In this document: positions 6,589 through 33,005 of the stretch, piece after piece
Layout of the letters: each line of letters begins with the position of its first letter
Numbering within the stretch: the first letter of the stretch is position 1
Source: Prevotella sp.
GTDB taxonomy: Bacteria; Bacteroidota; Bacteroidia; Bacteroidales; Bacteroidaceae
DNA: 64,000 nt
Assembly: GCA_016286575.1 (NCBI GenBank)
Contig: JAEETB010000001.1
Span: forward strand, 1 to 64,000
Direction of reading: 5' to 3'
The notes under the pieces: generated by a model
Told to the model about the DNA's origin: nothing
The model's database searches: none
What the model saw: only the letters and a program-made list of their open reading frames with translations
Program-made: the position numbers and the translations under genes

Positions 6589-6745
6589 ATTTCGTATTAT
6601 GACATTATTCTCTTCGTCTCTGTGCTCACAGATTACCCTGTAGACTTATTCCTTTTCCCCAACTGCCGCCAAAAACAAGAAAGAGCAAAAAGCCCAAACA
6701 CCTTTCACCAAAGCCATGATCTTTCCGCTCTTCATTTCACGTTCA

Positions 6746-7027
6746 TCACTTAGTAAGAATATCATCCTCCCCCAACGGCTCATACGCCCCGTCCTTCGAT
6801 TCAAAAAGTACCGACCCGCTCTCCAGGCACTCCAGCGAATGCCACCAGTCTTTCTCTACCACAAGCATGCGGTTTTCGCCATTCGCGTCAAGCAGAACAC
6901 GCTCTGTCTCGTTGCCATTCTCGTCGTAGAATATCCAACGGATCTTTCCACGAATAACGACAACTGTCTCCGAGCGTAAACCACCATATGAACGTAACCC
7001 CGATTTTACGGGCATTACCGCTAACAT
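6746..7027 (-). pseudogene. 5'-truncated WbuC-like cupin; the first ~16 codons come from the adjacent IS66 end
   Basis: SETVVVIRGKIRWIFYDENG...HSLECLESGSVLFESKDGAYEP parallels WbuC at 33192-33632 (SESVICLEGCLDWIFYEE...HTIEVHEPSTIFEAKDGAYEP); N-terminus missing at the IS boundary. Confidence 0.65.
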
Positions 7028-8024: not shown

Positions 8025-8374
8025 GATGGTCTGCGGCTTTTTGCCAAGCTATTACTGTTGATGTCTATGAATCCTCCGTCGGGACTCTCAAGCCGGAGGT
8101 GAGATACCTGCCAGACTGGCTTGGGTTGAGTCTTCTCCTCTTCGATGACCAAGGGAATGAAAGACTGAGGGTCTGGTTCCGATTCCTGGACTGGCTTTGT
8201 CTCATTGGGATATGTCCTTTTGTATTCCTGCAGCCATTTGTAGTCAATGCCTTCATCCTGGCAGTACTTGCGGAGGCTGCGCCCGTTTCGATGCTGGTTG
8301 AAGTCCTGCATCACTTTTTCGAAATATTCCTTTGTCTCCATACTGTAATAGTTTAAACGGAGGCAAAGGTACAT
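7955..8374 (-). CDS. IS66 TnpA-like ORF, 3' end frameshifted over the transposase remnant
   Basis: METKEYFEKVMQDFNQHRNGRSLRKYCQDEGIDYKWLQEYKRTY; C-terminal tail is an out-of-frame reading of the transposase. Confidence 0.65.
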   Translation of the reverse strand: MYLCLRLNYYSMETKEYFEKVMQDFNQHRNGRSLRKYCQDEGIDYKWLQEYKRTYPNETKPVQESEPDPQSFIPLVIEEEKTQPKPVWQVSHLRLESPDGGFIDINSNSLAKSRRPSWRVIRLCPASAVSTSSRSLPIT

Positions 8375-8559
8375 CTTTATGTTGATATCACCTTACGTTC
8401 ATATGGTGGGTTACAATTCATCCCCCAAACTTCCCATCCTTACTTTCAAATGAATCAAATTCGTTATTCCTTCGTTCTACCCAAGCTCTACCCATACTCT
8501 TTGAGTAAGCCTAGAGTATGCCTGCAAGCAGGCTAGAAGCAGCCTAGAGTATGGCAACA

Positions 8560-11500: not shown

Positions 11501-11631
11501 ACCTCATGGTCGTTCATAAGCTCTTTCTGCTTCTTGAAGTCCTCCAAGAAAGCGTCCATCACTAATCCTTGGTTCTCAGCCTTGTCTTCCGAGAAATGAA
11601 TGTCTGATACAAAGAATATAGCTACCTTCAT
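8560..11631 (-). CDS. calcineurin-like metallophosphoesterase fused to a large STAND-like region without a canonical Walker A
   Basis: SDIHFSED, GGDLV, PGNHDAHR, MHHPFD, LTGHSHEQD metallophosphoesterase motifs; later VTPAQYGLTSFAWHF...DVRWIVFDNWN...MLLSSMLEKSL in a STAND-like arrangement. Confidence 0.75.
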   Translation of the reverse strand: MKVAIFFVSDIHFSEDKAENQGLVMDAFLEDFKKQKELMNDHEVFVCLGGDLVKNPDTPDIYRAFYKQFIKPIMATGVKKKNIICVPGNHDAHRAWIKENIVVYGPVVSQNFTEDSFNTFVNSENGILLLHKFLQYNDYMIHGLERDGFNLIGYPVELNDEWSVYCLNSALTSFAGVKDDNYPLLQKDDKRLCIDTRRLYEWVSNNKKKKILLMHHPFDYYTNWASAELKKIVKQNFDLVLTGHSHEQDLLCNNNGKDSYIWCMAPQLFTDKKDTLGYSIIELDTDGVKKITYREWNDKRNAFRPGGSFTEEEDGIVNIEQQKATIKDKVTILFEERLNDSMAVYGDKSLVWLDRYFSVERFDRAFTLKKEKLFSEDNILNEEPKRIKIVTPAQYGLTSFAWHFLLRLWREKNKFGLFLDCALYKKGKPEKLFENQLATFEKKPQDVRWIVFDNWNVSNKDSKEILTFTLAKYPEIPIMLLSSMLEKSLIEKEFTSNQDFSFVNLFMAPLQTFQVRKMVEVYNQKMRIDENDKVLKRLNADITNFNMHRTPLSCISLLEVFNKSFDDNPVNRTAMIQRLLSIIFDNETVPNYKSLPDVKDCEFVLGYICEHIIRTEHYYFSDEEFFDASKKFCDAQKITLDYRYLFDILLNNQILCQYEPHLFSFRFAFWVYYFAAMRMTKSQEFASIILDKENYAHYPEIMEFYTGSDRTRNDAAELLIKDIQNITQSVESKVGIPEDVNPFQRLKMKRNEAQIENVIQQLEDNLQKSKLPDRIKDAWEDKNYNPSRPYHQDVYHVMKNYSVSYLQEMIGIASKAMRNSDYIRPELKEELFDSITKAWLAVVKVIYLMAPALARDGVAGYDGFSLQLDETFSDSNISDDERLVDVIVSIPFNMLSWYKDDIYSAKLANLIYDKINNPINPIAKHLLIGIVVSEQPDKWAENVRKYLAEADRNSYYFGNTLDLLLYKWRFDVMSEQDAGNTKLLYLAGMAKFYSRSNRLELDKARNYKSSALPERIVNKDDDV

Positions 11632-11647
11632 AATTTCCCCTCCTTAA

Positions 11648-13150
11648 TTATGCTTGTTTATACTTATTCTCTACAGCCTCTACCAGTTTGATGGCATATT
11701 TCCAGTTGTCATCGGTCTTATACTCGGTCTTCCCCCAATAGTCAACGATGGTCTGACCGGTGGTAATATCAGCCATGATATCCTCGCCCTTCAGACAATT
11801 ATATATCTCGTTACCAAATTTCGTCTTCTTTACGAAAGGATTTATCGCATCAGCAGCTACACGTAGCAACTGTACATAGGGCTTCAATTTAATTTTGTCA
11901 CGATCTTTCTCAAAAAGTTTTAGCAACTGATCCTGACCCTGACCGTAGTCAGCCCTCAACTCTGCTGAGAACAGACGTTCGAAGAAAGCATCCAACTCAC
12001 CCACCTTATGCCCGTGGGCTATCAGCGGTGTAAGTTTGCTATTGTATTTCTTTACGAGATTCAACACTCCATCTACCCTCTCCTGCACTTTTGTCCCATG
12101 ACGAGAGCCATTGAAGCGGCTCTCAAGTATAGGATCAAAATAATCCTTCATTGCGTCCATTAAGGCGAAGAGTGCTTGCAAGTTCATTTCCTGCTCTTCA
12201 GTGAGGTACACATCTTTACGAATCAGATAGTTCGAAACCTTATCTTCATCTAGCACCGGAAAACTGTTTTCACCATCCAGTCTTATAAAATACAGGAACA
12301 TGGCAAACAATTCATCGTCTGCCATGGGTTTGGCATTTGCTGGTATCTGGTCTTCTGATGGATTGGTTTCTTCTTGACTAAACAACGTACGCAGTTTACC
12401 CAGCAGTTCCTCTTGATCGTTTTTTGCGAGTTTCAGTTGCGAGAGTTCCCCTTTGGCGGTTAATTCTAGCAATCGCTGTTTAAGATAACAGAACTGTCCT
12501 TTTACGGTCTTGCTATCTGGCATACAGCAGAAATACTTGTAGTTTGTCAGCTCTGTCTGCACTTGCGCCTTCTTCGTTGAATCCTCCAAATAAAGCCGCA
12601 GGGCTTCTTTGCGTTTTTCTTCTGGCCAGTCCACTGGCATTATAGCCAACTTCAGCAGATGCTCATACACCTTTTGTAACGCCATACGGAAGGCATCCAC
12701 CATGTCCGAAGACTTCATTTTCAAGATAGCCCTGAAAGGCTCCAGTATCTCCTCATCAGGCAATGGCATAGAGCCTTCCGCACTGTCATCCGGAAGTTTA
12801 TCCAAGTGATAACCGAAAAGCTGATTCACAATAATGGTAAGGCGTTTAGCCCTACCTTCCGCAAAGAAGTTCTTATCTTCTACTTGGTATTCTACCCCAC
12901 CAAGCTGTTCTATCCACTGCTGTATCTCCTTCAGCCAGTTGTCAAACTGGAAGCGAACAAAGAAACGGATATCCATATCCGCCTGCATACGATAGTAACG
13001 CGACGACAAACCGCGGGCTATGTTGTAGGCCTCCAAAGCAAACAAGAACATATCGCTCCGATGGCGAAAGATGGGCATATTGCCACTCGCCATCATAAAC
13101 TGCAAGTGCTCAAGTCTGGCTGTTATCAATTTTGTCTGGTCTTCTTTCAT
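11648..13150 (-). CDS. uncharacterised ~500-aa helical protein, operon partner of the metallophosphoesterase
   Basis: Long ORF 16 bp upstream of 8560-11631 on the same strand; no motif recognised. Confidence 0.7.
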   Translation of the reverse strand: MKEDQTKLITARLEHLQFMMASGNMPIFRHRSDMFLFALEAYNIARGLSSRYYRMQADMDIRFFVRFQFDNWLKEIQQWIEQLGGVEYQVEDKNFFAEGRAKRLTIIVNQLFGYHLDKLPDDSAEGSMPLPDEEILEPFRAILKMKSSDMVDAFRMALQKVYEHLLKLAIMPVDWPEEKRKEALRLYLEDSTKKAQVQTELTNYKYFCCMPDSKTVKGQFCYLKQRLLELTAKGELSQLKLAKNDQEELLGKLRTLFSQEETNPSEDQIPANAKPMADDELFAMFLYFIRLDGENSFPVLDEDKVSNYLIRKDVYLTEEQEMNLQALFALMDAMKDYFDPILESRFNGSRHGTKVQERVDGVLNLVKKYNSKLTPLIAHGHKVGELDAFFERLFSAELRADYGQGQDQLLKLFEKDRDKIKLKPYVQLLRVAADAINPFVKKTKFGNEIYNCLKGEDIMADITTGQTIVDYWGKTEYKTDDNWKYAIKLVEAVENKYKQA

Positions 13151-13357
13151 ACAAGTTATCTTGAGGTCATCGTAGACTGGCAGTCTACAGATATCGTAAA
13201 TTACTGATTATCAATACTTATATAATAGATTGTTAAGAGACGTAAATAGATTGGGAAGACGGGCAATCCCTTATTTCCTTTGCAACCAGAATCCGACGAA
13301 AACCGCATCCCGGGTAGCAGTTGACAGAGGATTTCACTGAGATAAATAACAAAAAGT

Positions 13358-13891
13358 ATGACAATTAAAAAATGTACGTGTATGAACAGTAACAATTCAT
13401 TATCACCGCATTTCGAGCTCCGCGAATTTGTCGTCAGTCAGACGGCTCTCGATCATGGGCTTGACAACACGCCTCCCGCTGAGGCGGTAGAGAACCTTCG
13501 CGCTCTCTGCGTTCACACACTGGAACCGCTTCGTGAGGCCCTGGGCTTGCCCATCATCATCACCAGCGGCTACCGTTGCAAGAAACTCAACCACCTTCTG
13601 GTGAACCACTCCACGAAGAGCCAGCACATGAACGGCGAAGCAGCGGACTTCTATGTGGGCTGGAACGGTCCCGAAAATGAGAAACCCTCACGCTGGGAAC
13701 TCCTCATCAAGGCCTTCCGCCAGATCATTACGGATGACAGCATTGCTTTCGATCAGTGTATCATCTATCCCTCTTTCATCCACGTGAGCTACGTGCGTTC
13801 CGGTCACAAGAACCGCAGCAAACTCACTCGCGGTTTCGGTAATGGCAAGTATGCCGCCCTGACCCGTGCACAAGCTTTAGCGCTGGAATAA
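13358..13891 (+). CDS. M15-family peptidase (D-Ala-D-Ala carboxypeptidase/endolysin-like)
   Basis: HFELREFVVS...IIITSGYRCKKLNHLL...STKSQHMNGEAADFY. Confidence 0.8.
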   Translation: MTIKKCTCMNSNNSLSPHFELREFVVSQTALDHGLDNTPPAEAVENLRALCVHTLEPLREALGLPIIITSGYRCKKLNHLLVNHSTKSQHMNGEAADFYVGWNGPENEKPSRWELLIKAFRQIITDDSIAFDQCIIYPSFIHVSYVRSGHKNRSKLTRGFGNGKYAALTRAQALALE

Positions 13892-13895
13892 TTTT

Positions 13896-13945
13896 CCGCT
13901 CGACCCGAAGGGGCGCTTGCTACCAACGGGAAGCAAGAATCTTCA
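13896..13945. repeat. short double-hairpin repeat, copy 3
   Basis: ccgctcgacccgaaggggcgcttgctaccaacgggaagcaagaatcttcaa, almost identical to copy at 14970. Confidence 0.75.
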
Positions 13946-13984
13946 ATTTTCAATATTTAATTTTCAATTAAACATTTAGAATTT

Positions 13985-14686
13985 ATGGCACAGATTAAAC
14001 AAGTCGGCATTGGCCGCAAATCAACCGGTACCATCGACGGTATCACCTATTATGTTCGTGGTGGCGTTACCTACGCCCGTAGTACTCCTAACATGCCCGC
14101 CAGTGTTTACAACACCCCTGAGGCAAAGCTGCGTCAGGCCATCTTTAAGATGATCCAGATGCACCTGAAGCACCACCTGCGTACCATCAAGCAGACCTTC
14201 ACGCCCAAGGGCAATGGTAGTGCATCCAACCGCTACTACAGCCTCAACAGTAAGGGCCTTTCTGCCGCACTAACTCCTCTGGCTGAGCTCTATCTGGAAG
14301 GTCAGGATGTCACAATCACCGATGTAGAGGCCGCCATCAGCGCCTACGCTGCTGAGCATCCCACCTCTATTAAGATTGCCTCCAAGAGCGGCTACGCAGA
14401 GGTCTACCTCACAGGCGATTGGCCCGACACTATCACGCTCAACGCCCTTGCAGGCGACAGCACCGTCATCATCATCGTGAATGAGAATGGTGTCCAGACC
14501 ACCATCAACGCGGATGGTACGGTAACTACCGAGACCTATAGCGGCAACTCAGGTGGCGGTTCAGACTCTGGTAACGGTTCGAACTCTGGCTCCGGCAGCG
14601 ATTCAGGCTCAGGAGACTCAGGTTCAGGAGACTCAGGTTCCAGCGGTGATGACTCTGGCGGCGGCGGCTTCGACACCGGTAATTAA
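13985..14686 (+). CDS. DUF6266-like protein with Ser/Gly/Asp-rich C-terminal tail
   Basis: GTIDGITYYVRGGVTYARSTPNMP...; tail SGNGSNSGSGSDSGSGDSGSGDSGSSGDDSGGGG. Confidence 0.6.
   Translation: MAQIKQVGIGRKSTGTIDGITYYVRGGVTYARSTPNMPASVYNTPEAKLRQAIFKMIQMHLKHHLRTIKQTFTPKGNGSASNRYYSLNSKGLSAALTPLAELYLEGQDVTITDVEAAISAYAAEHPTSIKIASKSGYAEVYLTGDWPDTITLNALAGDSTVIIIVNENGVQTTINADGTVTTETYSGNSGGGSDSGNGSNSGSGSDSGSGDSGSGDSGSSGDDSGGGGFDTGN
14606..14635 (+). repeat. two 15-bp tandem units encoding GSGDS in the SG-rich tail
   Basis: ggctcaggagactca / ggttcaggagactca. Confidence 0.7.
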
Positions 14687-16577: not shown

Positions 16578-19500
16578 ATGGCAGTATCTGATACACTTAG
16601 AGGATATAGGACCCAGTTCCTTTACACTTTATACAGAATCATTTCCACAAATAATTCTGGAAAAGAGGTTTTCCGTCCTGAAGGAATAGAAGACCTGGAT
16701 ATTCTTGTGGATGACAAAGTGGTAGAGTCAATACAAGTAAAAAACCACAAGAGTAGCCTATTGGGATATGCTCATTTATCATCCAATGCCCATACAACAA
16801 GCTTCTTCTCACGTGGAATAAACACATTGCGTAAGTACCCACAGGCAAAGCTAACATTGTTTTCTTTCTATGTGGTTGATGACGACCTCTCCCAAAAGCC
16901 AAGGTTGTCATACAAGCTCAAACATGATAAATACACAAAATTCTCTACAAACGATATAAATAGTCTTCTCAATGCTTATGAGATAAAGATTAGGTCAGAG
17001 CAGTCATTATATGAAGAGGTTGTTGCTATCTTGAAACAAAGATTTCCCTCCTTTAATCCAGAGTACGAGATTAAATTACTGACTCAGTGGATATACAATG
17101 CGGCTGAAGAAGGTAAAAAACTGACTTACAACGATTTGGTAAATGTGCGCGAACGATATGTTACATTTAATAATCAACAGGCTTCGGTTCTTTCTGAATA
17201 TGGCCTCACCGTTATTAAATTGGACCAAGTACCAGGTATATGTCAAGATAATATAAAAGAAGAGTTTTACAATGGCGTTTCGGCTCGTTTGTATCATATC
17301 CAGGCAGGTTTGGATGTTAAACGAGAGCAGAAACTTTTGCAAATAAAAAACGCATTTATGAACTCTAATGTTGTAATTCTTCATGGTCAATCTGGTCAAG
17401 GTAAGAGTACGTTAGCATATCGATATATAAATGACTATTGCCCATTTGCATATGAAATTAGAAATAGCAATGATGGGAATATCAGCAGAATAATAGCCAC
17501 ACTCTCTGCATTAGCCAAAGACTTACCATGGAAGATTGTATTATACTTAGATGTTATACCATCGAATACTGAATGGGTACAGATTGTCAAGGAGTTTGCT
17601 AACTACGAGAAAGTTCAGTGTATTATAACTATTCGCCAAGAAGATTGGAATCAGAAGAAAAATGAAGTCATTACCAACAATAGTACCATTTCTGAGATAG
17701 AGGTGACACTAATAAAGGAAGAGGCTCATAAAATATATGAGGCTATTAAGTCAGATGACAGGTACCCTTTTCCTTTACCGTTTGAAGATGTATGGAAGAA
17801 AGAGGGCAAACAAGGTTCTCTTCTTGAATTTATTTACTTCCTTAATCATGGGCGCAGTTTGAAGTCAAGAATTGCCGAACAAGTTGAGAAGATCACTGAC
17901 AAAAGCAGGGATTTGCTGGCTTATATTGCATTAGGGAATCACCTCGGTGGTCATATCAACAAGTATTCATTGTCTGATTTGACGAAATTGTCTATTCTTG
18001 AAGTAGAACGACTTGTAAAAAATTGGAATAAAGAATATTTTGTTATCAACGAGGATGGCGAATTCTCTGATGTTCATCCTATTCGTACAAAGCTGATCAT
18101 TGACCAAATATTTAATAACGATGTAAAAATCATAGTGAGATATGGCCTAAATCTGTATAAGCTAGTAAATCCAAATCAAACCGACATCTATCTTATCAGA
18201 TTGATGAACGAGGGTATGTCCGCATGTGATTTGATTGATTGGGAGACAAATCAGAGACAACTCACCCCTGCCCTTTATCATGGTATTGCAAAGGCATTAC
18301 TATGGAAAAGAATAAAGGAATATGAAGAAAAACATAAGGGGCTTATTGACCAACTAAAGAATAAAGTAGGTACAGCATGGAATTGGTATCTTCCCTTTAA
18401 CTTTACAGAAATTGACATTCAAGAATCTGTTGAAAAACTTGTAAAAACAATCAACAACGACATACCCGACCTATCATATATTACCAACCGCTTCGAGCCT
18501 CAATCCATTGTTTTTGAGTATATCGAAAGGTGGCTGTGCGATAAGGAACTGTGTCTTTCTATCAAATCAGGACAAGATTGGTTAAAAGCAGGAGAATTCT
18601 TATATATAGTATCTCAATTAAGCATTACCCCAAAGATAGAAATAGGTACACTTCCATTCAAAGAAACAGGAAGTTCACTTTCGGAAATGTCAACAATACT
18701 CCTAGGATTTAAGTTATACAACTATTCTGACGAAAACATTGCGGACATAGAAAAATCTTTCATTAATAATCTGAGGCATCAATATAATATTGTAAACTTT
18801 GAAATTGATGATGACAGACTGCATATTGTATCATTCCTTGATTATTTTAACAATCACGATGATGAAAGTAGAGCAGGATTTATAACGGAACAGCACAATA
18901 TGGCTATATTAGAACTCTGTCGGAGAGCATTTCCAAAAATCAAGGTATATAATTCTAAAATAATAGATGATACTATTACATCTTTTCTTCCAACTATGCC
19001 CACGGAAAAAAGTATACCTAGAGATAAATTCCCCCTTTATGAGATGACAGAATACTGTACGATATTGAGCAGGTTGTATCAACGGTCATATCTATTACCA
19101 GATCGACTTGCGTATGCAGATACTTGTATATTACTAAGAAAACGATATGCTAAGACAGTCTATGAGGTTGCCCTAAGTATAGAGAAGTGGAGTTGTGACA
19201 AATCAAGAAATAACTCATTGTTGGCCGATGCCTATAAGCAAGCATCCGATCTTATTGCATCCAGTATCATTGAGATACCTAAATCAGAAATAAGTGAATA
19301 TGGATTAGACTACAAATCTGATGAAACATATATCCCTGATGATTTGTATACTCATAAAAACAAGAAAAAGACAGACATAGAAGAGGTTCAGAATCTGATT
19401 TCTACACATATATCCTCACTAAACACTTTTTTCATCCAATCACTTAGTCTTTTAATTGGAGAGCATAATAACAATTACAAACGAACATCGATAGCCAATT

Positions 19501-20501
19501 TATATGAGGCGATTAATCAACTGTACAAATTGCAGACGATGTTCAAAAGAGTTCTTGGCGAATATGTAAACAAGAAGGATTTGGAAAGTGTAGAAAAGGC
19601 AGAAAAAGTCAATCTTAAGATGCTTTGGGTTATATGGGAGGCATATATTAGCAATAACGGCACCAAATTAAATTGTGCAAATCTAATGAGAAGATTTGAT
19701 TTTAAGGAGAAGAACTTAACAAACGAGATTCTTAAAGTGTTGAACACGTATCTCTCCGACCATTCTTCGCAGAAAAAAGCCTCCTATTACGGTTTGTCTA
19801 TCAAGATTGATTGCAAATATGAGGATATTGAGGCCAAAGCTGACATCGTCATAGAGTGTATAGATGCATTACAAAACACATTCTCTAATTACGCTTATTT
19901 CTCATCGGAGCGATTAATCATGGGACGCAAGGTAAAAGAAGTATGGATCAATCCTTTGTATTGTTGTAATGTCCATGATGATTCCAACCTCGACTTACAT
20001 TATACATCAATGTCCATCAACAGATTCTTTGAAATAGAAGAAGATGATAATCTAGAGTCAAGTAGTTACCCGCAATATGATGCTGACAAGGACGCCTATA
20101 ATCTTTGTCCCAAAGTAAGGGATTACAATACTATTATGGCCCAACTTTTTGATATGGTAATGACAACTCATAAAATAACTTCTGCAATACAATTTGTTAC
20201 AGATGACGACAAGGTCGGTTCTGAGGTGATAAAGGATTACGCGGATAAATCGAAAGAGCGCTTCCTTGAAAATAAAGTTATTAATATTCTATCGTATAGA
20301 GTTTCTTTACAGACATCTGACAATGCTGTCAACAACGATATTGGCAAGTTGTTAGATGCGATTGAATCTTTTTATTCGCTCCTCAACATAAATGATGAAT
20401 GGTGGTTAACATGCCAAGATTGCATAGAATCATATCTGGATGTCATAGCAAATGACTGGATGATAAAAGCATGTCTAACAATGAATTACCATGTAAATTA
20501 A
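16578..20501 (+). CDS. Avs-like STAND NTPase with N-terminal Cap4/DUF4297-like nuclease domain
   Basis: N-terminal GIEDLDILVDDKVVESIQVKNH nuclease-like motif; P-loop LHGQSGQGKSTLAYRY; ITIRQEDW sensor-like motif; long helical C-terminus. Confidence 0.7.
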   Translation: MAVSDTLRGYRTQFLYTLYRIISTNNSGKEVFRPEGIEDLDILVDDKVVESIQVKNHKSSLLGYAHLSSNAHTTSFFSRGINTLRKYPQAKLTLFSFYVVDDDLSQKPRLSYKLKHDKYTKFSTNDINSLLNAYEIKIRSEQSLYEEVVAILKQRFPSFNPEYEIKLLTQWIYNAAEEGKKLTYNDLVNVRERYVTFNNQQASVLSEYGLTVIKLDQVPGICQDNIKEEFYNGVSARLYHIQAGLDVKREQKLLQIKNAFMNSNVVILHGQSGQGKSTLAYRYINDYCPFAYEIRNSNDGNISRIIATLSALAKDLPWKIVLYLDVIPSNTEWVQIVKEFANYEKVQCIITIRQEDWNQKKNEVITNNSTISEIEVTLIKEEAHKIYEAIKSDDRYPFPLPFEDVWKKEGKQGSLLEFIYFLNHGRSLKSRIAEQVEKITDKSRDLLAYIALGNHLGGHINKYSLSDLTKLSILEVERLVKNWNKEYFVINEDGEFSDVHPIRTKLIIDQIFNNDVKIIVRYGLNLYKLVNPNQTDIYLIRLMNEGMSACDLIDWETNQRQLTPALYHGIAKALLWKRIKEYEEKHKGLIDQLKNKVGTAWNWYLPFNFTEIDIQESVEKLVKTINNDIPDLSYITNRFEPQSIVFEYIERWLCDKELCLSIKSGQDWLKAGEFLYIVSQLSITPKIEIGTLPFKETGSSLSEMSTILLGFKLYNYSDENIADIEKSFINNLRHQYNIVNFEIDDDRLHIVSFLDYFNNHDDESRAGFITEQHNMAILELCRRAFPKIKVYNSKIIDDTITSFLPTMPTEKSIPRDKFPLYEMTEYCTILSRLYQRSYLLPDRLAYADTCILLRKRYAKTVYEVALSIEKWSCDKSRNNSLLADAYKQASDLIASSIIEIPKSEISEYGLDYKSDETYIPDDLYTHKNKKKTDIEEVQNLISTHISSLNTFFIQSLSLLIGEHNNNYKRTSIANLYEAINQLYKLQTMFKRVLGEYVNKKDLESVEKAEKVNLKMLWVIWEAYISNNGTKLNCANLMRRFDFKEKNLTNEILKVLNTYLSDHSSQKKASYYGLSIKIDCKYEDIEAKADIVIECIDALQNTFSNYAYFSSERLIMGRKVKEVWINPLYCCNVHDDSNLDLHYTSMSINRFFEIEEDDNLESSSYPQYDADKDAYNLCPKVRDYNTIMAQLFDMVMTTHKITSAIQFVTDDDKVGSEVIKDYADKSKERFLENKVINILSYRVSLQTSDNAVNNDIGKLLDAIESFYSLLNINDEWWLTCQDCIESYLDVIANDWMIKACLTMNYHVN

Positions 20502-20565: not shown

Positions 20566-22998
20566 TCAGTCAATCTCAATAGAAACGGCATTTGCAATCT
20601 TTACGTCAATCTCTGAACTGAAGTCTATTTGCTGCTCTTCAGTTTCCAACGACACTATCAACGAGTAGCGCATACCCGCCTCTATTTTATCAAGACTATT
20701 TCGGTTATACCACCAGCCAGATACCGGGAACACCGCTATCAGATTGCATGTCGCTAAGTCTGCCGCCGACATTTCTATCCAATCTTTATGGATTGAACCT
20801 TTAGTACGTTTCTTGATACCTATGTACCAACGCTGGGTATCATTCACTACCTTTACATCATCCTCGTCATAGTCACGCTGTATGCGGTGACGGAATGCAC
20901 GTGGCTTTTCATTCACGTTACTCAACTCAAAACGCAAACCAGCAGAAGCATAGTTGTATTTCTTAAATGAAGAAACATAGTTGTCCGTTGGACCTGGTTC
21001 AATGAAATACGACAATGTAATGGACAACTTTACGGTCTTTTCGCCCATCATCAATAGTGTATCCTTTGGCCAAGGCAGTTCATAGATATGCATCTTATTG
21101 AATGAATTACCTTTCTTTTTCTGTCCTTCCTTCTTACCCTTTTTGTAGGGTTGAATACTGTTTTGAGCAATAAAGGTCACACCATTCTTCCTACTCTCAA
21201 GCATCTTCTCCAAATCAGGCACACCGTAACCGCATACGCGCAAACGTTCATCCTTGTCAGGGAAGTCCTGCTCCATTTGCTCCGTCCATTTTGCAGTATG
21301 CACAAACAAGCCTCTAATGGTTTCAGGCCAATAGCTAGGATTTTCCACTGCTACAAAACCCGCATAGCGAGCAGCTAAAGCTGTTGCAGCACTTGTAGCG
21401 TTGAATGTCCTGAAATATTTGAAATAGGTATGCTCGTTTGAAGTTGTCAGCAACTCCAAATCATTATGTCCATACGTCGCACCATTAACATCCATTGTCC
21501 TGTTACCGCCTTCCATCACAACTTCTGGTTTGATGGGCATGTTGGTCATCCACAATAGCGAGGTGGTACTGTAAGGCGACAGACTTCCTTCACGGGCTAT
21601 CACATTCATGGGGTGACCGTTACTGTCAAGCGCCCTCACCTTCTCGGTATAGGCACCAACAGTCAGGGCATTCCATGCTTGCCCCGGATTTAATATGGCT
21701 CGTGTCTTATTAGCATCTGGGTAGTTTTGCCAGTCAAATTCCTCATCCACATTGCCCGCACACTGAACAAACAGTCGCTTCAGTCCTGGTTCATCACCAA
21801 AACATATCTGGTCAAGTGCACTCGACCACGACGATGGCGTACCATCGCTCCATCCCCTATCCTCAGCCACTGCCATGCAGTAACCCATCACGTCGTTGCC
21901 ATGATTGATTTCTGCTATCGAAACACCTTGCTTCGTAAAGTCGGCCCAAAACTGTTTCTCGGCTCCATCTTGTTTGTTAGCTACTTTCACAGAGCACAGA
22001 CGGAATCTGGGTTCCTCTACTCTTCTATTTGCAAGTGCATCTGTCAGGTCACCGTAAGCAGCAACACCGGCCATCATCGTACCGTGAGGCCATTTATCGT
22101 TTACACCCCATTTATTCAATACAGAATAACGCTCATGATCAGCAATTACAGGGAGCAGCATCGGGTGTCCGGCTATAACACCTGAATCCAATATACAAAG
22201 GTATCTGTTGGTTATGGCATCATAACAGTACTGACTCATAATCATATTCAGCCAGTCCCGCTGTTCTGGACCATCCCCTTCTGCTATAAAACCAGCCAAC
22301 GTCGGTACACTTGAAACCTTGACAAAGGTATCAGAGGCATAGAACAAACGTTCCATATCCTTTTTGTTGGCACAGGCTAGAATAACAATACGCTCTGGAA
22401 ATTTCAGATATCGCTCTTTATATTCTATCTGCAAATTATGCATCAGCGAAAGCACTGGGTCAGCTGTGTTCTCAGCAAACCACAGTTCCACCCATTCTTT
22501 CACTTCAGCAGGCATCTGTCCTTTTCCGTGCCAAAGATCATCTACGGTAACAGTTCTTATCTCCTCTATACTTTCCAACAGGGGTTTGTTCAAACGCTCG
22601 TTATTTTTAGTACGTTTGTTCCCCTTATAGGTTTCTACTTTCTTGTCAAGCCAATCCTTCTGTTTCTTTTTCAAGAACAGAATGGCAGAAGTCACCATGC
22701 CACCTTCTGGTGTTGGTGTATCTTGTACTGATACTATATGGCCTATCGTCGGACTGTCAATAGATTTCAGCGCAAAATCATAGTCAGCCGTGTTTCTCAA
22801 CATGATATAGTAGCCGTCTCTGACCTGTGCTACATCAGCCTTCTTCAAGGCCTCTTCGTCCTTGGCTATCACAGCCTTATACAAATCCAGAATCTTATCT
22901 ACATGCCCACCGCCCCTTTCCGGAAGGTTAGGGGTTCCGAAACCAGAACCCTTATAGTCAAACGCCTCTCCTGCGTATGAGATATCGTAGTGCTTCAT
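20566..22998 (-). CDS. subtilisin-like S8 serine peptidase
   Basis: Triad motifs CILDSG, HGTMMAG and NATSAATALAARYAG. Confidence 0.8.
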   Translation of the reverse strand: MKHYDISYAGEAFDYKGSGFGTPNLPERGGGHVDKILDLYKAVIAKDEEALKKADVAQVRDGYYIMLRNTADYDFALKSIDSPTIGHIVSVQDTPTPEGGMVTSAILFLKKKQKDWLDKKVETYKGNKRTKNNERLNKPLLESIEEIRTVTVDDLWHGKGQMPAEVKEWVELWFAENTADPVLSLMHNLQIEYKERYLKFPERIVILACANKKDMERLFYASDTFVKVSSVPTLAGFIAEGDGPEQRDWLNMIMSQYCYDAITNRYLCILDSGVIAGHPMLLPVIADHERYSVLNKWGVNDKWPHGTMMAGVAAYGDLTDALANRRVEEPRFRLCSVKVANKQDGAEKQFWADFTKQGVSIAEINHGNDVMGYCMAVAEDRGWSDGTPSSWSSALDQICFGDEPGLKRLFVQCAGNVDEEFDWQNYPDANKTRAILNPGQAWNALTVGAYTEKVRALDSNGHPMNVIAREGSLSPYSTTSLLWMTNMPIKPEVVMEGGNRTMDVNGATYGHNDLELLTTSNEHTYFKYFRTFNATSAATALAARYAGFVAVENPSYWPETIRGLFVHTAKWTEQMEQDFPDKDERLRVCGYGVPDLEKMLESRKNGVTFIAQNSIQPYKKGKKEGQKKKGNSFNKMHIYELPWPKDTLLMMGEKTVKLSITLSYFIEPGPTDNYVSSFKKYNYASAGLRFELSNVNEKPRAFRHRIQRDYDEDDVKVVNDTQRWYIGIKKRTKGSIHKDWIEMSAADLATCNLIAVFPVSGWWYNRNSLDKIEAGMRYSLIVSLETEEQQIDFSSEIDVKIANAVSIEID

Positions 22999-23004
22999 CT
23001 GTGT

Positions 23005-23970
23005 TTAGCCGGCTTTTACGTCAAATCCCTTCACACGCTGTCTCAACGACTCTTCAATCATCGCCTTCGTCAGCGGCTTGTTGGTCAAAATCGAAGTCTT
23101 GATGGCATCTGCACATACAGCACAAATCACAGCCTGACTATAGCCCACAAAAGAGCCTGCCAAATTCTCCATAGTTTTGTCAGAGACACGTTTTTCCAGC
23201 TTCTTTTGCAGTAAGGCAACTATCTCTGCCTTTGTAGGCAACATAAACAGCACCACATCGTCAAATCTGCGGAACAGTGCCTTATCCAACACTTTCATAT
23301 CGTTGGTTGCTGCTATCACGATACTCCGTATCAAAGGTTGTTCCGTCAGTTTCAGAAAACTGTTCAGGATGCGCCTCATCTCGCCAACTTCATTATCTCT
23401 TTCGCGCTCCGTGCCAATGGCATCAAACTCATCAAACAGGTAAACGCCCGGATGGGTATTAATCACCTCAAATAGTTCGGCCAATTTAGCACTGGTGCTT
23501 CCTAGAAATCTGGATACGATTTTTTCCAGCTGTACCACATATAGCGGCAGACCTGTCTCGTTGGCTATCACGCTGGCTGTCATAGTCTTTCCCGTACCCG
23601 AAGGGCCGCCAAACAACAGACGACTGCGGTTTTGCAAACCATTCCGCTCCAACAACTCACGCTCCTGATATTCCATAATGGTACGCTCTATACGTGTGCG
23701 AATCTCTTCTGAAACCACGATGTCATCCAGTGTATAAAGGTTCAGCTCCTCTACCACTGAGTCCGACAAGGCCGTGTTCATGAAACTCATCCGCAGCACC
23801 TTGCCCGCAGAGCGGTTTTTATCCACAATTTTACGAATTTCCTGAGCTGCCACCCTATGACCGGCACGAGCTTCAGCCGCTGCTATTTGCAATGCAACAG
23901 TATTAAAGCCCTCCTTATCATCTTGATAATGAGCGTTCAAAAGGGCTAAAATGCGGTCATTTTGTACCAT
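23005..23970 (-). CDS. AAA+ ATPase, partner of the subtilase
   Basis: GGPSGTGKTMTA Walker A, YLFDEFDAIG Walker B, ATNDMKVLDKALFRRFD sensor/arginine-finger region; 6 bp from the subtilase. Confidence 0.85.
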   Translation of the reverse strand: MVQNDRILALLNAHYQDDKEGFNTVALQIAAAEARAGHRVAAQEIRKIVDKNRSAGKVLRMSFMNTALSDSVVEELNLYTLDDIVVSEEIRTRIERTIMEYQERELLERNGLQNRSRLLFGGPSGTGKTMTASVIANETGLPLYVVQLEKIVSRFLGSTSAKLAELFEVINTHPGVYLFDEFDAIGTERERDNEVGEMRRILNSFLKLTEQPLIRSIVIAATNDMKVLDKALFRRFDDVVLFMLPTKAEIVALLQKKLEKRVSDKTMENLAGSFVGYSQAVICAVCADAIKTSILTNKPLTKAMIEESLRQRVKGFDVKAG

Positions 23971-26262: not shown

Positions 26263-27321
26263 TTAGATAGAGTTAACCTTCTTCCTCACAAAAACCTTGT
26301 TAATTTCATCCATAGTAGCATTATTGATGACCGAGGCATGCCCATGATGTTTCACTTCAACACTCTGCTTGTCATAGATGTCAAAGGTATACTCAACATA
26401 GCCGTAATTCTTTTGTGAGGACTTAGACGTTCCCGTCCAGTCTAACTGACAAAAACATTCCCTGTATTGCTTTACCATATCTGGTTCAGGAAGTCCTTGC
26501 CTTTTGAAAATAGTGGTGCAGGCAAGTACAGGTTTTCGTGATGCAAAAGTATCTCTCATCTTAAATCTGACTGGCAGGTGGTCTGATGATGAAGAAGAAT
26601 GATGGGGAAGCTTCGTAAGCAAAGGCTGATCGAACGCTTCCGGATTGAGCATATCTATCTCGTCATTCTCTGTATCAGCCAAAAACAATAGTTTGTGCCT
26701 ACCGTCTTTATTCCCAATACTTATCTGAAGTGAGATTGACAGGTCATTTTTGTGAATTGTCGCATTTTTCTCCAACTTATAATTAATTTTGCTGCCGTGA
26801 GGTGAAAGTGCATCAATTTGTACATCCAAGTTTCCAAAGGCATCACTAAAAGAGAGGTGCTTGACGGGCTGTGATTCGTCTTTGATGACAGATATTGTTT
26901 CATGACTCAAAAATTTTCTCTTTGTGAGACCAAGTACGGTGTCTATAAGATGCTTATCCTCTTTATTGTAATTCACTTTGTTCCAAGCTGCTCCATTCAA
27001 GTCGTAAGGCAGTATAACTATTGTATCTTCACTACAATAGTAGTTAAGAATCTCGTTGAGGCCATAGGTGTGGTCGTAGTCGGGATGTGACCAGACAAGC
27101 ATATCCACTTTTCTGTCTTTCAGTCCATAGCGTTCCATGATGTCAAGCGTCTTATGTACACCTTTGTATTTGAAGCTATCAATAACAATGGAGTAAAGGA
27201 GTTTGTTGTTGTCGCCTTTATCCAAAAATACGATAAGAATACTTTCTCCACGCTCTGAATATCCTATGACATAAACTTTGACCACAAGGTTGTCTCTGGA
27301 TGTAATTTCCATACTAATCAA
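26263..27321 (-). CDS. metallo-beta-lactamase-fold hydrolase (ComEC/Rec2-like)
   Basis: WSHPDYDHTYG, FLADTENDE, LPHHSSSSSD motifs. Confidence 0.7.
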   Translation of the reverse strand: MISMEITSRDNLVVKVYVIGYSERGESILIVFLDKGDNNKLLYSIVIDSFKYKGVHKTLDIMERYGLKDRKVDMLVWSHPDYDHTYGLNEILNYYCSEDTIVILPYDLNGAAWNKVNYNKEDKHLIDTVLGLTKRKFLSHETISVIKDESQPVKHLSFSDAFGNLDVQIDALSPHGSKINYKLEKNATIHKNDLSISLQISIGNKDGRHKLLFLADTENDEIDMLNPEAFDQPLLTKLPHHSSSSSDHLPVRFKMRDTFASRKPVLACTTIFKRQGLPEPDMVKQYRECFCQLDWTGTSKSSQKNYGYVEYTFDIYDKQSVEVKHHGHASVINNATMDEINKVFVRKKVNSI

Positions 27322-27532
27322 GATTGATAACCTTTATATCCATCAGAGTGGAATACTTGTCTTCTATTGAAGATACGGACACATCTCTAACAGAATATGA
27401 CACCTTCTTGATACTCGCATTATCATTAATAATACCAAATAATTCTTCAGAAGAGGAACGCTGATTAACAACACCTTCATCGGAATTTCCAAGAATCAGG
27501 TCGAAAATATTGTCATTGCTGTGGTTCGCCAT
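27314..27532 (-). CDS. uncharacterised 72-aa protein
   Basis: Short ORF overlapping both neighbours in a tight operon. Confidence 0.5.
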   Translation of the reverse strand: MANHSNDNIFDLILGNSDEGVVNQRSSSEELFGIINDNASIKKVSYSVRDVSVSSIEDKYSTLMDIKVINLD

Positions 27533-28361
27533 GTTCGTTGAGGTAGTTAATTGTTACAGACATTTTATATAGTTCAAACATGTAGTCGTTGATTAATTCG
27601 AGAGAGGATGACAACGCTGCAGGGAATGTAAGGTTGTCCTTCCTTATAATGTACTCATCGATATATGTATCAATATCCAAGACAGCCTGAAATGGCCTTT
27701 CACTTTCTATGCGTCGGCAATGAGTGGAATAATTAACCTTGACGGAACGATTTGCATTATCGCCCTCTGTCATGGTCTTCATGAACCTGTCGTGATATTC
27801 GCGTTCTATGATAGTTGTATCAGCATTATCAATGGTGTGGCCCTCAAAGAATCCTGTCTCGAACGTGTTATTCATATCCTCTGTCCCGGCAAAAGAGTCT
27901 CCTCCGATTTTTCTTATACCGATACGTTTGATCTTTATGTATCTGTCGGATTCCATGAAAGTCGTAAGGTATCTGTTCAAGTAGTTAAAATAGTCATCAA
28001 TGTTGGTATAATGAACACAATCCACCTGAAATGTCATGAAGAGACCAGCAATCTCCATGTTCACCTTATCTTGATGCCCATCGAAATGACTTTCACGGAA
28101 GTGATGAATGGGCAGAGAGTCAAAGGCACTTATAGGCAAAGCCCGCTGACGAGCAACTTCCTCCATTTTTGAGAGGTCGAAACTCGCTTTATTAAGGTAT
28201 GACTGGCCATAGTCGTTAAAATGATTGTTCAGAACGGGAGTTGCTTTGAATATATCTATCCACTTGTTGATATCTGTGACACCGTCATAGTCCACTCGAA
28301 TAAGAATTTTTTTCAGCATATTTTCACGCATACTGTAGCGTGTAAAGTTCTCTTTGGGCAT
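27513..28361 (-). CDS. uncharacterised protein, possibly TIGR04255-like
   Basis: 282-aa ORF in operon; overall pattern (KRIGIRKIGG..., FQAVLDIDTY) only loosely suggests the family. Confidence 0.5.
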   Translation of the reverse strand: MPKENFTRYSMRENMLKKILIRVDYDGVTDINKWIDIFKATPVLNNHFNDYGQSYLNKASFDLSKMEEVARQRALPISAFDSLPIHHFRESHFDGHQDKVNMEIAGLFMTFQVDCVHYTNIDDYFNYLNRYLTTFMESDRYIKIKRIGIRKIGGDSFAGTEDMNNTFETGFFEGHTIDNADTTIIEREYHDRFMKTMTEGDNANRSVKVNYSTHCRRIESERPFQAVLDIDTYIDEYIIRKDNLTFPAALSSSLELINDYMFELYKMSVTINYLNEHGEPQQ

Positions 28362-28381
28362 AACACAATTATTTATTGAGG

Positions 28382-29197
28382 CTATTTTGTTTTATCTAAC
28401 TTTACAACTTCAATGATATGGTCAACAGGTTCCACATTAGTAAGGCCAGTATTTTCCTCAAACACAATCCGAGCACGTTGAGTCTGCTGGCTTAAAGCTA
28501 TATCGCGGTAGGTGATACTGCTCTTAACCATCCCTATCAGACGTGACTGAGTGTTGTGTTGAGACCCCTTGATAAACATAATCTCGGGCTTTAACACGAC
28601 AGGGCCACCGCTATTGCCCGGGAACACGAGGGAGTCGATGATGAAGTCTGTGCTGGATCCTTCTAACAAGTCATTAATCCGGGCAATGGCGCCCATACGT
28701 AGAATCGTATAGTTACGCGATTCACCCACCAAACCCAAAGGAAACCCAAGAGTAAAAACGCCATCGCCCTCAGTCACGCCCAAAGATTTCATCTCTGCAA
28801 TGGTATAGCTGTCTTTATCATACCTAAATGCTGTCAAATTAACCTGATCTGCTTGCAATTGTCTGTAATAATCCATCGACAGAGGTACAGCCGACACATC
28901 GACTTTCTCATCAGGGTGGGATTTATAGATAGGGACTCCGTTTTCGTACAGATCTATTTTGTATTTCTTTGCTGCTTCGTCACCTTCTGGATTGAACAAT
29001 AAGTAAATCTCTTTTCTACCTCCAACAACGTGTTTGTTAGTTATGAGATGGACATAATACTCACCTTCATCAGATTCTTCCTTCACATCGTTATAGCCAA
29101 AAAGGAAACCCGTACCGATCCAGGAGCAGTCAGTTTTGCCCGTACTGCTTCCGATGGCAACCACACAATTGAGATATCGAGATTGGATAAGAGCCAT
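28382..29197 (-). CDS. trypsin-like serine peptidase
   Basis: LITNKHVV (His), KVDVSAV (Asp), PGNSGGPVV (Ser). Confidence 0.8.
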   Translation of the reverse strand: MALIQSRYLNCVVAIGSSTGKTDCSWIGTGFLFGYNDVKEESDEGEYYVHLITNKHVVGGRKEIYLLFNPEGDEAAKKYKIDLYENGVPIYKSHPDEKVDVSAVPLSMDYYRQLQADQVNLTAFRYDKDSYTIAEMKSLGVTEGDGVFTLGFPLGLVGESRNYTILRMGAIARINDLLEGSSTDFIIDSLVFPGNSGGPVVLKPEIMFIKGSQHNTQSRLIGMVKSSITYRDIALSQQTQRARIVFEENTGLTNVEPVDHIIEVVKLDKTK

Positions 29198-29198
29198 A

Positions 29199-30062
29199 TC
29201 AGTAGAATTTTTCTATATTGCGGGAATAAGTAACCTTATTGTTGCTGTCCATCATCAGGATTTTATGCAACTCTACTTTTAATATCCCTGTCTGCTTAAA
29301 CTTTTTGCCTATGAAATCATAGGTTTCAAAGTAATCTTTATTATCAATGAGACAGAGCAGTTCAACTCCTGCCCTCGTGAGCCGTCGAACCTGAAAGTCT
29401 ACTTTTATTACTTGCTCTTTAGTGTTTTCAATGGAATACAAATAGCGATTGTTGACTGGTGCAACGCAATTTCCAATAGGAATACTCCTTGTATGCGTAA
29501 GTTCGTCTGGAGTCATCAGACCTATCTCGATTAAAGAAATGACGTTCATCAGGGGCAACCCGTATTCATCCCCAGTGAGAATATACTCACCAAAGCATAG
29601 ATACTTCAATGCATCAATAAAGAGTTGAGCATCTGACCTGGTCATGTTCCGAAGAACATCAAGAGTCCTCAATGAAAAAGAGTTTGGGTGCTTCACTTCT
29701 CCTGCAAGAATCTGAGCCCAGAGGTTCTGCATGGTTTCATCAGAAACATCCTCCACAATCTTATTAAATCGGTTGAGCCAGTCATCATCAACAGGTTCGT
29801 CTGTTACAACTTCATTGTCTGAGACTATAGTTCTCGCCTTTCCTGATACTCTTTTGAAATTCTCAAAATGTTTTCTCTCCTTTAACAGAGTATAGTTTAT
29901 GGCATCTTTATCATCTTTGGGAAAATCTTCATTTTCAAAGATAATCTTGGCCAATTTACTTGTAGAACTCGTTTCGTTGGTTCCAAGCATGTTTGTTATA
30001 GTACAGTTAAACTTATCACCAAACGATATGTTCTTTCCTGTTGTTATGTTTGTCTCGCACAT
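29199..30062 (-). CDS. DUF2806/TIGR03899-like protein
   Basis: DDDWLNRFNKIVEDVSDETMQNLWAQILAGEVKHPNSFSLRTLDVLRNM. Confidence 0.6.
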   Translation of the reverse strand: MCETNITTGKNISFGDKFNCTITNMLGTNETSSTSKLAKIIFENEDFPKDDKDAINYTLLKERKHFENFKRVSGKARTIVSDNEVVTDEPVDDDWLNRFNKIVEDVSDETMQNLWAQILAGEVKHPNSFSLRTLDVLRNMTRSDAQLFIDALKYLCFGEYILTGDEYGLPLMNVISLIEIGLMTPDELTHTRSIPIGNCVAPVNNRYLYSIENTKEQVIKVDFQVRRLTRAGVELLCLIDNKDYFETYDFIGKKFKQTGILKVELHKILMMDSNNKVTYSRNIEKFY

Positions 30063-30077
30063 AGTGTTGTTAATATA

Positions 30078-30150
30078 GTCGAGTATGGAGAGGGACTTTC
30101 ACCCTTCCTTCTCACGGAACCGTGCTTGATAGTCGCTCGTCACACGGCTC
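30078..30150 (-). ncRNA. orphan group II intron 3' end (domain V + domain VI)
   Basis: Minus strand GAGCCGTGTGACGAGCGACTATCAAGCACGGTTC (34 nt, domain V-like with GCGA loop) followed by CGTGAGAAGGAAGGGTGAAAGTCCCTCTCCATACTCGAC. Confidence 0.65.
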
Positions 30151-30172
30151 TTCGTGTTTAACTCATTTGTCG

Positions 30173-31156
30173 TTACAAATATTCCATCAACTTTTTATTC
30201 TTCTTAGGACTTGTCATCCATATCGAACCTTCTTTTTGAAAGGTCTTCCATAAATCACCTAGCAGGATATTCTCTTTGTTAACTAATTGAGAGTTTATGC
30301 CATTCATATCTTTATCATCACGATTAAGTACAGAATGTAGTAGCTGTGAGATGATTGAGAAAAATAATCCTACAGCTTTCTCTATTTCATTACCAGACTC
30401 ATGCTCCAAATGGATTTCCCCTCCGAATTCAACACTCCTATTTCTCTGGACTACTCCTAAAATAGCTTGCATAGCCTGCTCAACATCCGTAAACAAAACT
30501 ATATTATACGCATTCTCCTTTCGGATATGCTTTTTATGATTTACTAGCCATGCCATCAAGATAGTCATTTCAAAAAACAAGTCAGACAACAAAACCTCTG
30601 GAATTACAATCGACCTGTCTATATTACCGATGTTATGACTAACTACCTCTGAACAGTCTGGGGCAATGGTACCCACCACATTTATAATGGCTTCACAGAT
30701 TACCTGAAAATCAGTTCCTTTTGGATTATGAATATTCTTTATTACAGATTCGTCAATGTTATCATAGACTAAATCCAACAGCTCCAATCTCTTATCTTTT
30801 GGGAAAGCGACATTTTTAAAAACTATATTCTCAAGAAAAGCCATCATTTTAAGATACGATCTGTTACTAACATCTACTGTGAAGAATGTCCTTTCACTAT
30901 CTCTTTGAAAGCTTTGGAGCACTTTTTCCATCAGAGAGAAAGATTCTTCTGATAATATAATATCCTCGTAGGACATGGTTTTATTATGCGATAATAAGAA
31001 CTGGGCTAAATCACCAAAGCGAACCTTTAGCATCATCTCGTCGCTTGTAAACGAGATAGCACTTGCATATTTATTATCACCGGTAGTTTTGTCTTCCCAA
31101 AAATAAATTTTATTGCTCATTGCCCAACAACTTAATATCCTTATGAATAATATCAA
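30173..31156 (-). CDS. uncharacterised partner of the NACHT ATPase (likely start at 31120, MSNKIYFWED...)
   Basis: Start ATGAGCAATAA overlaps the NACHT stop codon; no recognised motif. Confidence 0.65.
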   Translation of the reverse strand: MILFIRILSCWAMSNKIYFWEDKTTGDNKYASAISFTSDEMMLKVRFGDLAQFLLSHNKTMSYEDIILSEESFSLMEKVLQSFQRDSERTFFTVDVSNRSYLKMMAFLENIVFKNVAFPKDKRLELLDLVYDNIDESVIKNIHNPKGTDFQVICEAIINVVGTIAPDCSEVVSHNIGNIDRSIVIPEVLLSDLFFEMTILMAWLVNHKKHIRKENAYNIVLFTDVEQAMQAILGVVQRNRSVEFGGEIHLEHESGNEIEKAVGLFFSIISQLLHSVLNRDDKDMNGINSQLVNKENILLGDLWKTFQKEGSIWMTSPKKNKKLMEYL

Positions 31157-33005
31157 AAACTCTAGTCATCCTGTATTTATTATTAAAAAGGATCAATGAG
31201 TCCATCTGAGTAATTAACTCATTGATATTATCGCCTGTAACAGCATGTCCCTGTTCCGACCCGATAAAATTAACTGCGACCTTTTTACCTTTTGCCTTTT
31301 TCATAAAGGCTTCGTTCGGGGGCACATCTCCTAATATCATAACAGAACGAAGTGTACTAAGATTTAATATCTTATGAGGAACAGCACCTCCTGTATAATT
31401 GAAAATAATAATTTTCTGTAATCCCTTAAAGTTTTCTATCCAACTAGCAACTTCTTGCGATAATATATTCCATGGTAGTGCTAAAATTGTAAATGGGAAT
31501 GGAGATTTCAGATGTTCCAGATTATAACCCGTAGCACTGTAAATCATCAGAGATCTGGCTGTAGTATCTATCTTATAGTCTATAATGCCTTTTGTATATA
31601 AATGCATAAACTCTCCAAGGCACAGCTCCTTATAAAATTTCTCTACCACATCCATGCCTTCGAAAGAAACCTTTAGCCCATGATAGAATAATTCCTTTGC
31701 TAAGAAAAATTCCAAGAACGATTTATGCGAGAACTTTATATATCCTTCAGAATCTCTGTTAATCAGTGAACGTCCCGACCAACTATAGGGGTCTTGAAAG
31801 GATTTTTCCTTCAAAAACACCTCAAATTCTTCACGAGTGATGAATAAACCTCCTCTTTTAGCTTTATTTTGATATATATCCACCGCTAACTGATTGGAAA
31901 AATCATATAACTTTTCCTTAAGGCCTTCTATTTCGTTTTTCTGATTCCAATTATTTACTTCCCTATCTAGCCACTTGTCTATTAACATCTGATATAGTTC
32001 ATATAGCGTAGGGTTATTAATCTTCTCCTCAAGAAGGTCATCGATATATGATAGTAAGAGTGGCCTTACCATCACATCCCTTGCCTGAGTTACAATTTGT
32101 TTTGCTTTCTTACGCGATTTTCTTGTATGATATTTCTTCTTTAAATACTGATCGATATCATTATCATCGAAAAAAGATATATAATGGCGCGTATATTCCT
32201 GAAAATTTTTCTCGCGTCCATAAAAAGTCAATTTTGATTGACGAGGTTCTTCCGTTGCATTAGAAAAGAACTGCGTCCTACATGTAACAATAACAACATA
32301 GAAACGCTTTATTGCCTCCTCTAATTTCGGGATAAATCGCTTAAAGTCCGTAACTGCCTCTGTATTTTCATCAAGAGCATCAAGAATAAGAATTGTTGTT
32401 GAATGATTGGGGATCTTCTCTATATCTTTAATAACATTATCATTAGAAAGGCTCAACAATTGTATATCATAAATCATCGTCCCTTTTGTATGCGAGTTCA
32501 CATAATCAATAAGCAGATTTACAGAGAAAGTTGTCTTTCCCATCCCAGAACCCGCAAGGACGCAATATAAGAACTTGCTAGTATTTTTTGGAACAAGAAC
32601 GTTGTTAATGTAAAAATCGAGTAGATCTGTAGGTTGTGCAATATTCTGATTCTCGATAGGGTCTAAAGTGTCATCGGGTGGTATCAGCTGGAATTTTGTT
32701 CTTACGTAGCATGCTCTATTCTTCTTATCCATAAAGCTAGCAAACTCTCGACCAAGCCTCGCCTCGATGGTCATTTTTCTCCATTTGCAGACAGCAATCC
32801 TTTTCCTATAGAACCACCAAACGGCATATCCTATAATACCTAATACTAAGACTACAGGTATTGTAATATCAAGGATTCTGTTAATTGTTTCCGGCTCCAC
32901 CTTGTACCCCCAAGTCTCTAACATTGATGATAATCGATTACCATCAACACCTAGCCAATCAAAAGGATTAAAAAAAGATAGAAGCATGTTCTTTATTACA
33001 ACCAT
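31110..33005 (-). CDS. NACHT-type STAND NTPase with N-terminal transmembrane helix
   Basis: TM ITIPVVLVLGIIGYAVWWFY; P-loop VLAGSGMGKTTFS; ILILDALDE; VIVTCRTQFF; FSHKSFLEFFLAKEL. Confidence 0.85.
   Translation of the reverse strand: MVVIKNMLLSFFNPFDWLGVDGNRLSSMLETWGYKVEPETINRILDITIPVVLVLGIIGYAVWWFYRKRIAVCKWRKMTIEARLGREFASFMDKKNRACYVRTKFQLIPPDDTLDPIENQNIAQPTDLLDFYINNVLVPKNTSKFLYCVLAGSGMGKTTFSVNLLIDYVNSHTKGTMIYDIQLLSLSNDNVIKDIEKIPNHSTTILILDALDENTEAVTDFKRFIPKLEEAIKRFYVVIVTCRTQFFSNATEEPRQSKLTFYGREKNFQEYTRHYISFFDDNDIDQYLKKKYHTRKSRKKAKQIVTQARDVMVRPLLLSYIDDLLEEKINNPTLYELYQMLIDKWLDREVNNWNQKNEIEGLKEKLYDFSNQLAVDIYQNKAKRGGLFITREEFEVFLKEKSFQDPYSWSGRSLINRDSEGYIKFSHKSFLEFFLAKELFYHGLKVSFEGMDVVEKFYKELCLGEFMHLYTKGIIDYKIDTTARSLMIYSATGYNLEHLKSPFPFTILALPWNILSQEVASWIENFKGLQKIIIFNYTGGAVPHKILNLSTLRSVMILGDVPPNEAFMKKAKGKKVAVNFIGSEQGHAVTGDNINELITQMDSLILFNNKYRMTRVFDIIHKDIKLLGNEQ

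Follow-up and report, generated by a model that had tools for sequence, protein, structure and literature searches.

Five genes, closely packed on the minus strand of the window (the whole stretch of 64,000 nucleotides analysed), raise the question whether they constitute a single novel defence operon, in which a trypsin-like protease switches on a metallo-beta-lactamase (MBL) hydrolase, as originally predicted, or whether the functional unit is made up of only some of them.

Organization of the locus

All five open reading frames of the prediction are present, with the coordinates and the compact spacing described. They are listed below, together with a sequence element which adjoins them.

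29199-30062, minus strand: DUF2806 gene (PF10987, 3.6e-32), an accessory-genome gene
28382-29197, minus strand: trypsin-like protease gene, 271 aa (PF13365, 2.4e-7)
27513-28361, minus strand: gene for a 282-aa protein, divergent TIGR04255-family, putative sensor or adaptor (NCBIfam TIGR04255, E 0.0026)
27314-27532, minus strand: gene for an acidic 72-aa protein, in the position of a short variable linker
26263-27312, minus strand: ComEC-like MBL hydrolase gene, putative DNase effector (349 aa from the ATG at 27312)
30078-30152, minus strand: 3' remnant of a group II intron, domain V/VI (Rfam RF00029, 40.9 bits)

The DUF2806 and trypsin genes are separated by 1 bp, the trypsin and 282-aa genes by 20 bp, and the 282-aa and 72-aa genes overlap by 20 nt. 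Reading the MBL frame from a TTG codon (27321-26263) creates an overlap of 8 nt with the 72-aa gene; the likelier start is the ATG at 27312, located 1 bp past the 72-aa stop codon.

The contig carrying the locus is 80 kb long and belongs to a genome of 478 contigs. Upstream, genes for a STAND-like NTPase (33005-31110) and an uncharacterised 327-aa protein are followed by the intron remnant, about 15 bp before DUF2806. Because this remnant adjoins it, the DUF2806 gene is located at a disrupted junction; a stretch 84% identical to the remnant is found on a Segatella copri plasmid. An IS66 fragment and an IetA/IetS pair lie downstream, and the island adjoins polysaccharide genes, as judged by inspection of the open reading frames. 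The data support an apparent operon inside a defence island. Two congeneric genomes gave no match to the island DNA, but this search had no positive control and shows little.

Some neighboring genes deserve a separate description. The STAND-like NTPase (within 30173-33005) carries an N-terminal hydrophobic stretch, and its gene overlaps that of the 327-aa protein, with which it may form a separate two-gene unit. The IetA/IetS anti-phage pair, an AAA ATPase and a S8 protease, occupies positions 20566-23970 (PADLOC, 9e-65 and 5e-33). A 1307-aa protein (16578-20501) combines a weak Cap4-nuclease N-terminus with a STAND NTPase domain; it matches no PADLOC model and is a possible uncharacterised sensor-nuclease.

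Features of the encoded proteins

The assignment of a trypsin fold with an intact catalytic triad was borne out: His, Asp and Ser are found in the motifs NKHVV, VDVSAVP and GNSGGP, at residues 54, 99 and 194, and the protein start does not resemble a signal peptide. The closest PADLOC model is PDC-S45 (5.2e-27), and there is a weak match (8e-6) to RT-Protease_XI, a model of RT-fused proteases. Elsewhere, PDC-S45-type trypsins occur alone, in tandem or in type I restriction-modification (R-M) operons, as in Bacillus wiedmannii, with no MBL neighbour. No close relatives were found in viral contigs, and plasmids contain distant trypsins only. Plasmids of Agrobacterium and Phaeobacter carry DUF2806 on its own, and in a further locus (L055) it accompanies other accessory genes.

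A PDC-S45 trypsin is also located, in locus L151 (6704-11513), directly downstream of what by inspection appear to be type I R-M subunits. The arrangement is that of B. wiedmannii plasmid p536 (L147), where the protease is linked to type I R-M.

The hydrolase is ComEC-like and retains its metal ligands, as expected from the prediction, within the motifs SHPDYDH, ADTEND and PHHS; the ligands are conserved across an alignment of 30 sequences. It matches the NCBIfam models for 6A-MBL (1.3e-7, 31.1 bits) and ComEC (7e-5), and the PADLOC models PDC-M48B (3e-7) and LmuA (1e-5). In a tree of MBL sequences it forms a long branch, whose placement is unsure. No close relatives were detected in viral contigs or plasmids, and a first scan of genome contigs with this sequence was empty. 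A putative DNase activity is suggested by analogy with ComEC-type and published relatives, and the proposal of a nuclease-type MBL as the likely effector is supported.

The 282-aa protein had been regarded as unknown, a description which needs partial correction. It matches NCBIfam TIGR04255, although weakly, at 17.6 bits (E 0.0026), under the curated cut-off of 30 bits. A profile built on 15 TIGR04255 relatives assigns it 20.9 bits, to be compared with 9.7 for the best of 2000 shuffled sequences and 11.1 for the best unrelated sequence among 719 proteins, and comparison of profiles by hhalign gives a P of 5e-4. In the alignment with L124, a TIGR04255 member from a viral contig, the stretches Y..ED, I.RIG.R.I and LDID, which are key to the family, are common to both proteins. 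On this sequence evidence, which places the homology above all controls, the protein is taken as a divergent member of TIGR04255. Its predicted structure is poor (pLDDT 36.8), and no close relatives were found in viral contigs, plasmids or phages.

TIGR04255 genes in other genomes

TIGR04255 is sporadic, being present in 17 of the 295 genomes sampled from the order. Searching viral contigs for TIGR04255 patterns yielded one member, L124. The 17 loci compared here comprise 16 from the order and the one from a viral contig. All but one of them contain the TIGR04255 gene followed by two genes on the same strand, with gaps not exceeding 11 bp in 15 of these 16, and the gaps upstream of the TIGR04255 genes are mostly of at least 95 bp. 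The layout is that of a TIGR04255 gene, a short variable protein (67-224 aa) and a variable third gene. Most third genes feature, by eye, a SQxCDL-like motif; two are DUF7689 and one looks HEPN-like.

The order of the 282-aa, 72-aa and MBL genes, with junctions of -20 and +1, matches this pattern, the MBL being the third gene. No homologue of the 72-aa protein was found; position and size of its gene match the second genes of two TIGR04255 loci, L040 and L044, which encode 67 and 76 aa. The 282-aa gene, unlike those of the other TIGR04255 loci, does not open its gene run, as the trypsin gene lies 20 bp upstream.

PADLOC analysis of 16 TIGR04255-type proteins produced no matches, and many of the loci have ordinary chromosomal surroundings. 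Among 74 proteins encoded next to 20 modules, PADLOC detected two type I methyltransferases, one specificity subunit and one defence-type kinase, while none of 67 proteins from 12 control regions matched. Enrichment of defence genes around the modules is weak.

Three-gene modules ending in an MBL gene

Eleven other Bacteroidota loci contain, in the same tight order, genes for proteins of about 230 aa and of 159-239 aa, and for a ComEC-like MBL of 325-355 aa. A MBL search led to the similar three-gene order of genome G027 (L011), which adjoins McrBC and a kinase. G624 (L090) and G518 (L091) were recovered by a profile search, and eight further loci (L100, L101, L103, L105, L113, L114, L115 and L117) came from scanning 85,462 species genomes; L102 is L011 found again, and is not counted among the eleven. 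The L101 operon (4605-6993) is that of Psychroserpens mesophilus. The survey of gene order does not support the five genes as one conserved system: the recurring unit consists of a TIGR04255-type gene, a short protein and the MBL. No trypsin or DUF2806 gene lies beside the eleven modules in the flanks examined, and both were found apart elsewhere.

The first genes of the eleven modules form one family, for which a confident model was obtained (pLDDT 85.9, pTM 0.83). In its order of strands and helices it resembles a TBP-like unit that has been duplicated; among solved folds, AdoMetDC and TBP come nearest, with low TM-scores (0.25-0.42). Comparison with TIGR04255 by hhalign detected no sequence relation (P 0.037); the link of these genes to TIGR04255 rests on gene order, protein length and the order of secondary structure elements. 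An alignment of the 282-aa protein with them was bad and was discarded. Nor is the 72-aa protein regarded as a homologue of the second proteins of the MBL modules, since it scored below shuffled sequences; those proteins have a common C-terminal domain, which the 72-aa protein does not contain.

One of the modules is part of a mobile element. In L090 it is bounded by a tRNA-Leu gene and a tyrosine integrase and enclosed by 57-nt direct repeats located 6.9 kb apart; it is cargo of a small 6.9-kb integrative element (7373-14408), which also carries a rep-like gene. L103 and L105 adjoin integrases, L105 also, by inspection, type I R-M genes.

Seven close MBL relatives (L106-L112) are found at the end of operons that contain no TIGR04255-type gene and encode a receiver-like protein together with an ATPase of the GHKL (paraMORC-like) type. 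The ATPase type was checked by Pfam in two of them, one of which also contains EcoRII-N. These operons resemble the paraMORC / Response_reg_2 / R-M loci described in PMC8011034, which makes no mention of MBL. Some of them include a cytosine-methyltransferase-like gene.

Comparison with described systems

Activation of gated MBL pro-nucleases by trypsin-like proteases has been demonstrated in Hachiman (HamM/HamA) and AVAST (Avs1), and the nuclease-protease pair also occurs in Lamassu and DRT (Tuck et al. 2025, PMC12799240). Proteolytic activation of a MBL nuclease, as envisaged in the original prediction, is a good idea, and not new in principle. The same work describes defence MBL-type hydrolases as DNA-specific nucleases, and pairs in which the protease is sensor-fused and its gene directly follows that of the nuclease. 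Like these pairs, the locus encodes in one operon a trypsin-like protease and a ComEC-like MBL that has insertions between its motifs. It differs from them in that the protease is standalone, of the PDC-S45 type, and is encoded upstream, two genes from the MBL; moreover, the partners conserved here are a TIGR04255 protein and a short one, and HamA/HamB, Avs, Lmu and RT genes are absent. None of the seven proteins encoded by the operon and its upstream gene pair matches a PADLOC model for the core genes HamB, Avs, LmuB or RT, including the STAND-like protein (33005-31110), for which no Avs model was matched.

The MBL matches the enzyme model of the 6A-MBL system (NCBIfam NF058524, 1.3e-7), but at 31.1 bits against a cut-off of 220 it is not a member. 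It belongs to the same broad MBL effector family as PADLOC PDC-M48B and the DRT-associated RTasMBL, both of which are matched by the L011 MBL (1.3e-17 and 1.4e-11). The locus differs from these systems in having no matches to the partner models, and the module contains no reverse transcriptase. The Canu caspase-nuclease loci (PMC12799240) are likewise three-gene operons ending in a MBL nuclease; their first gene is a caspase, whereas the conserved TIGR04255-type module contains no protease. The search for a named system matching the TIGR04255 / short protein / MBL module found none, and the literature searched contained no paper on TIGR04255 or 6A-MBL. It is an undescribed module which recurs in bacteria and whose last gene probably encodes a DNA-cutting enzyme.

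Functional unit and alternative explanations

The preferred explanation, to which we assign a probability of about one half (0.52), is that the 282-aa TIGR04255-type, 72-aa and MBL genes are the functional unit, with trypsin and DUF2806 outside it. In this model a complex of the TIGR04255 protein with the short one would sense an intruder and keep the MBL inactive until triggered; the triggered MBL would then degrade DNA, so that phage growth is stopped or the cell is killed. A defence role of the module is suggested by its context. The trypsin, a local neighbour of the conserved unit, may be an activating protease acquired in this lineage, on the lines of the published nuclease-protease pairs, and DUF2806 is probably separate cargo. 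The locus is best described as a TIGR04255 / linker / MBL-DNase module residing in a defence island, perhaps locally extended by a protease.

A larger role of the trypsin, as in the original prediction, assumes that the MBL is a pro-nuclease: the TIGR04255 and 72-aa proteins would sense infection, and the upstream trypsin, once switched on, would cut gating loops of the MBL and unleash DNA degradation. Trypsin and MBL lie within one tight gene run, the protease has an intact triad, a start unlike a signal peptide and a weak similarity to the RT-fused protease model, and HamM/HamA and Avs1 provide proof of the principle. The MBL also spans 155 residues from motif I to HH, about 37 more than the 115-121 of ComEC. 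In the published pairs, the nuclease has two insertions relative to ComEC, with a conserved Ile in each; both extra stretches of the present MBL contain an Ile of uncertain conservation. The span is however of 156-167 residues in relatives with no trypsin partner, so that the insertions are not specific to such a partner. In addition, trypsin is absent from every other TIGR04255 or MBL module found, PDC-S45-type trypsins have no MBL neighbours, and the protease is separate and placed first, two genes off, rather than sensor-fused with the nuclease just upstream. That this trypsin cleaves the MBL is a hypothesis, and activation of the MBL by proteolysis, although possible and testable, is not preferred to a three-gene unit that works without it; we consider the protease-switched arrangement rather unlikely. 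If true, it would place the published nuclease-protease pair in a fifth sensor context, here with a trypsin that stands alone, and the locus would also test whether proteolytic activation of MBL nucleases reaches beyond the published systems.

Trypsin, DUF2806 and the TIGR04255/MBL genes may instead be independent cargo of the island, brought side by side by chance after insertions and deletions. Each is found elsewhere without the others, and the intron remnant and the IS66 fragment testify to rearrangement at the locus, whereas gaps as short as 1 and 20 bp favour co-transcription over fortuitous contact. Such an origin, to which we give nearly even odds, concerns only the link among the five genes, and is compatible with the three-gene explanation; nor do the alternatives exclude one another. 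A different role for the three genes themselves would be that of an addiction module akin to toxin-antitoxin systems, in which the TIGR04255 and short proteins restrain a toxic MBL and the set maintains a mobile element but has no genuine role against phages. The compact overlapping operon on the small integrative element of L090 and the sporadic spread (17/295 genomes) agree with it; that MBLs of this family accompany paraMORC-type operons and occur in McrBC/R-M islands speaks against it, and we regard it as improbable.

TIGR04255 genes nearly always open a three-gene operon whose last gene is exchangeable, and there are modules with this layout that have a DNase-type MBL at their end, one of them carried by a small integrative element; this provides a testable function for TIGR04255. 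More broadly, TIGR04255 could mark a class of three-gene immune modules, large and hitherto undescribed, whose third genes are exchangeable (SQxCDL-motif, DUF7689, HEPN-like or MBL), and of which the locus would be the MBL version with a captured trypsin switch. This generalization is doubtful, somewhat more so than activation by the trypsin taken by itself; if true, it would make the locus a new sensor context for protease-activated nucleases.

The SQxCDL-like protein, an undescribed TIGR04255 partner, corresponds to no Pfam family; its gene recurs in third position in L040, L041, L048, L025, L049 and other loci.
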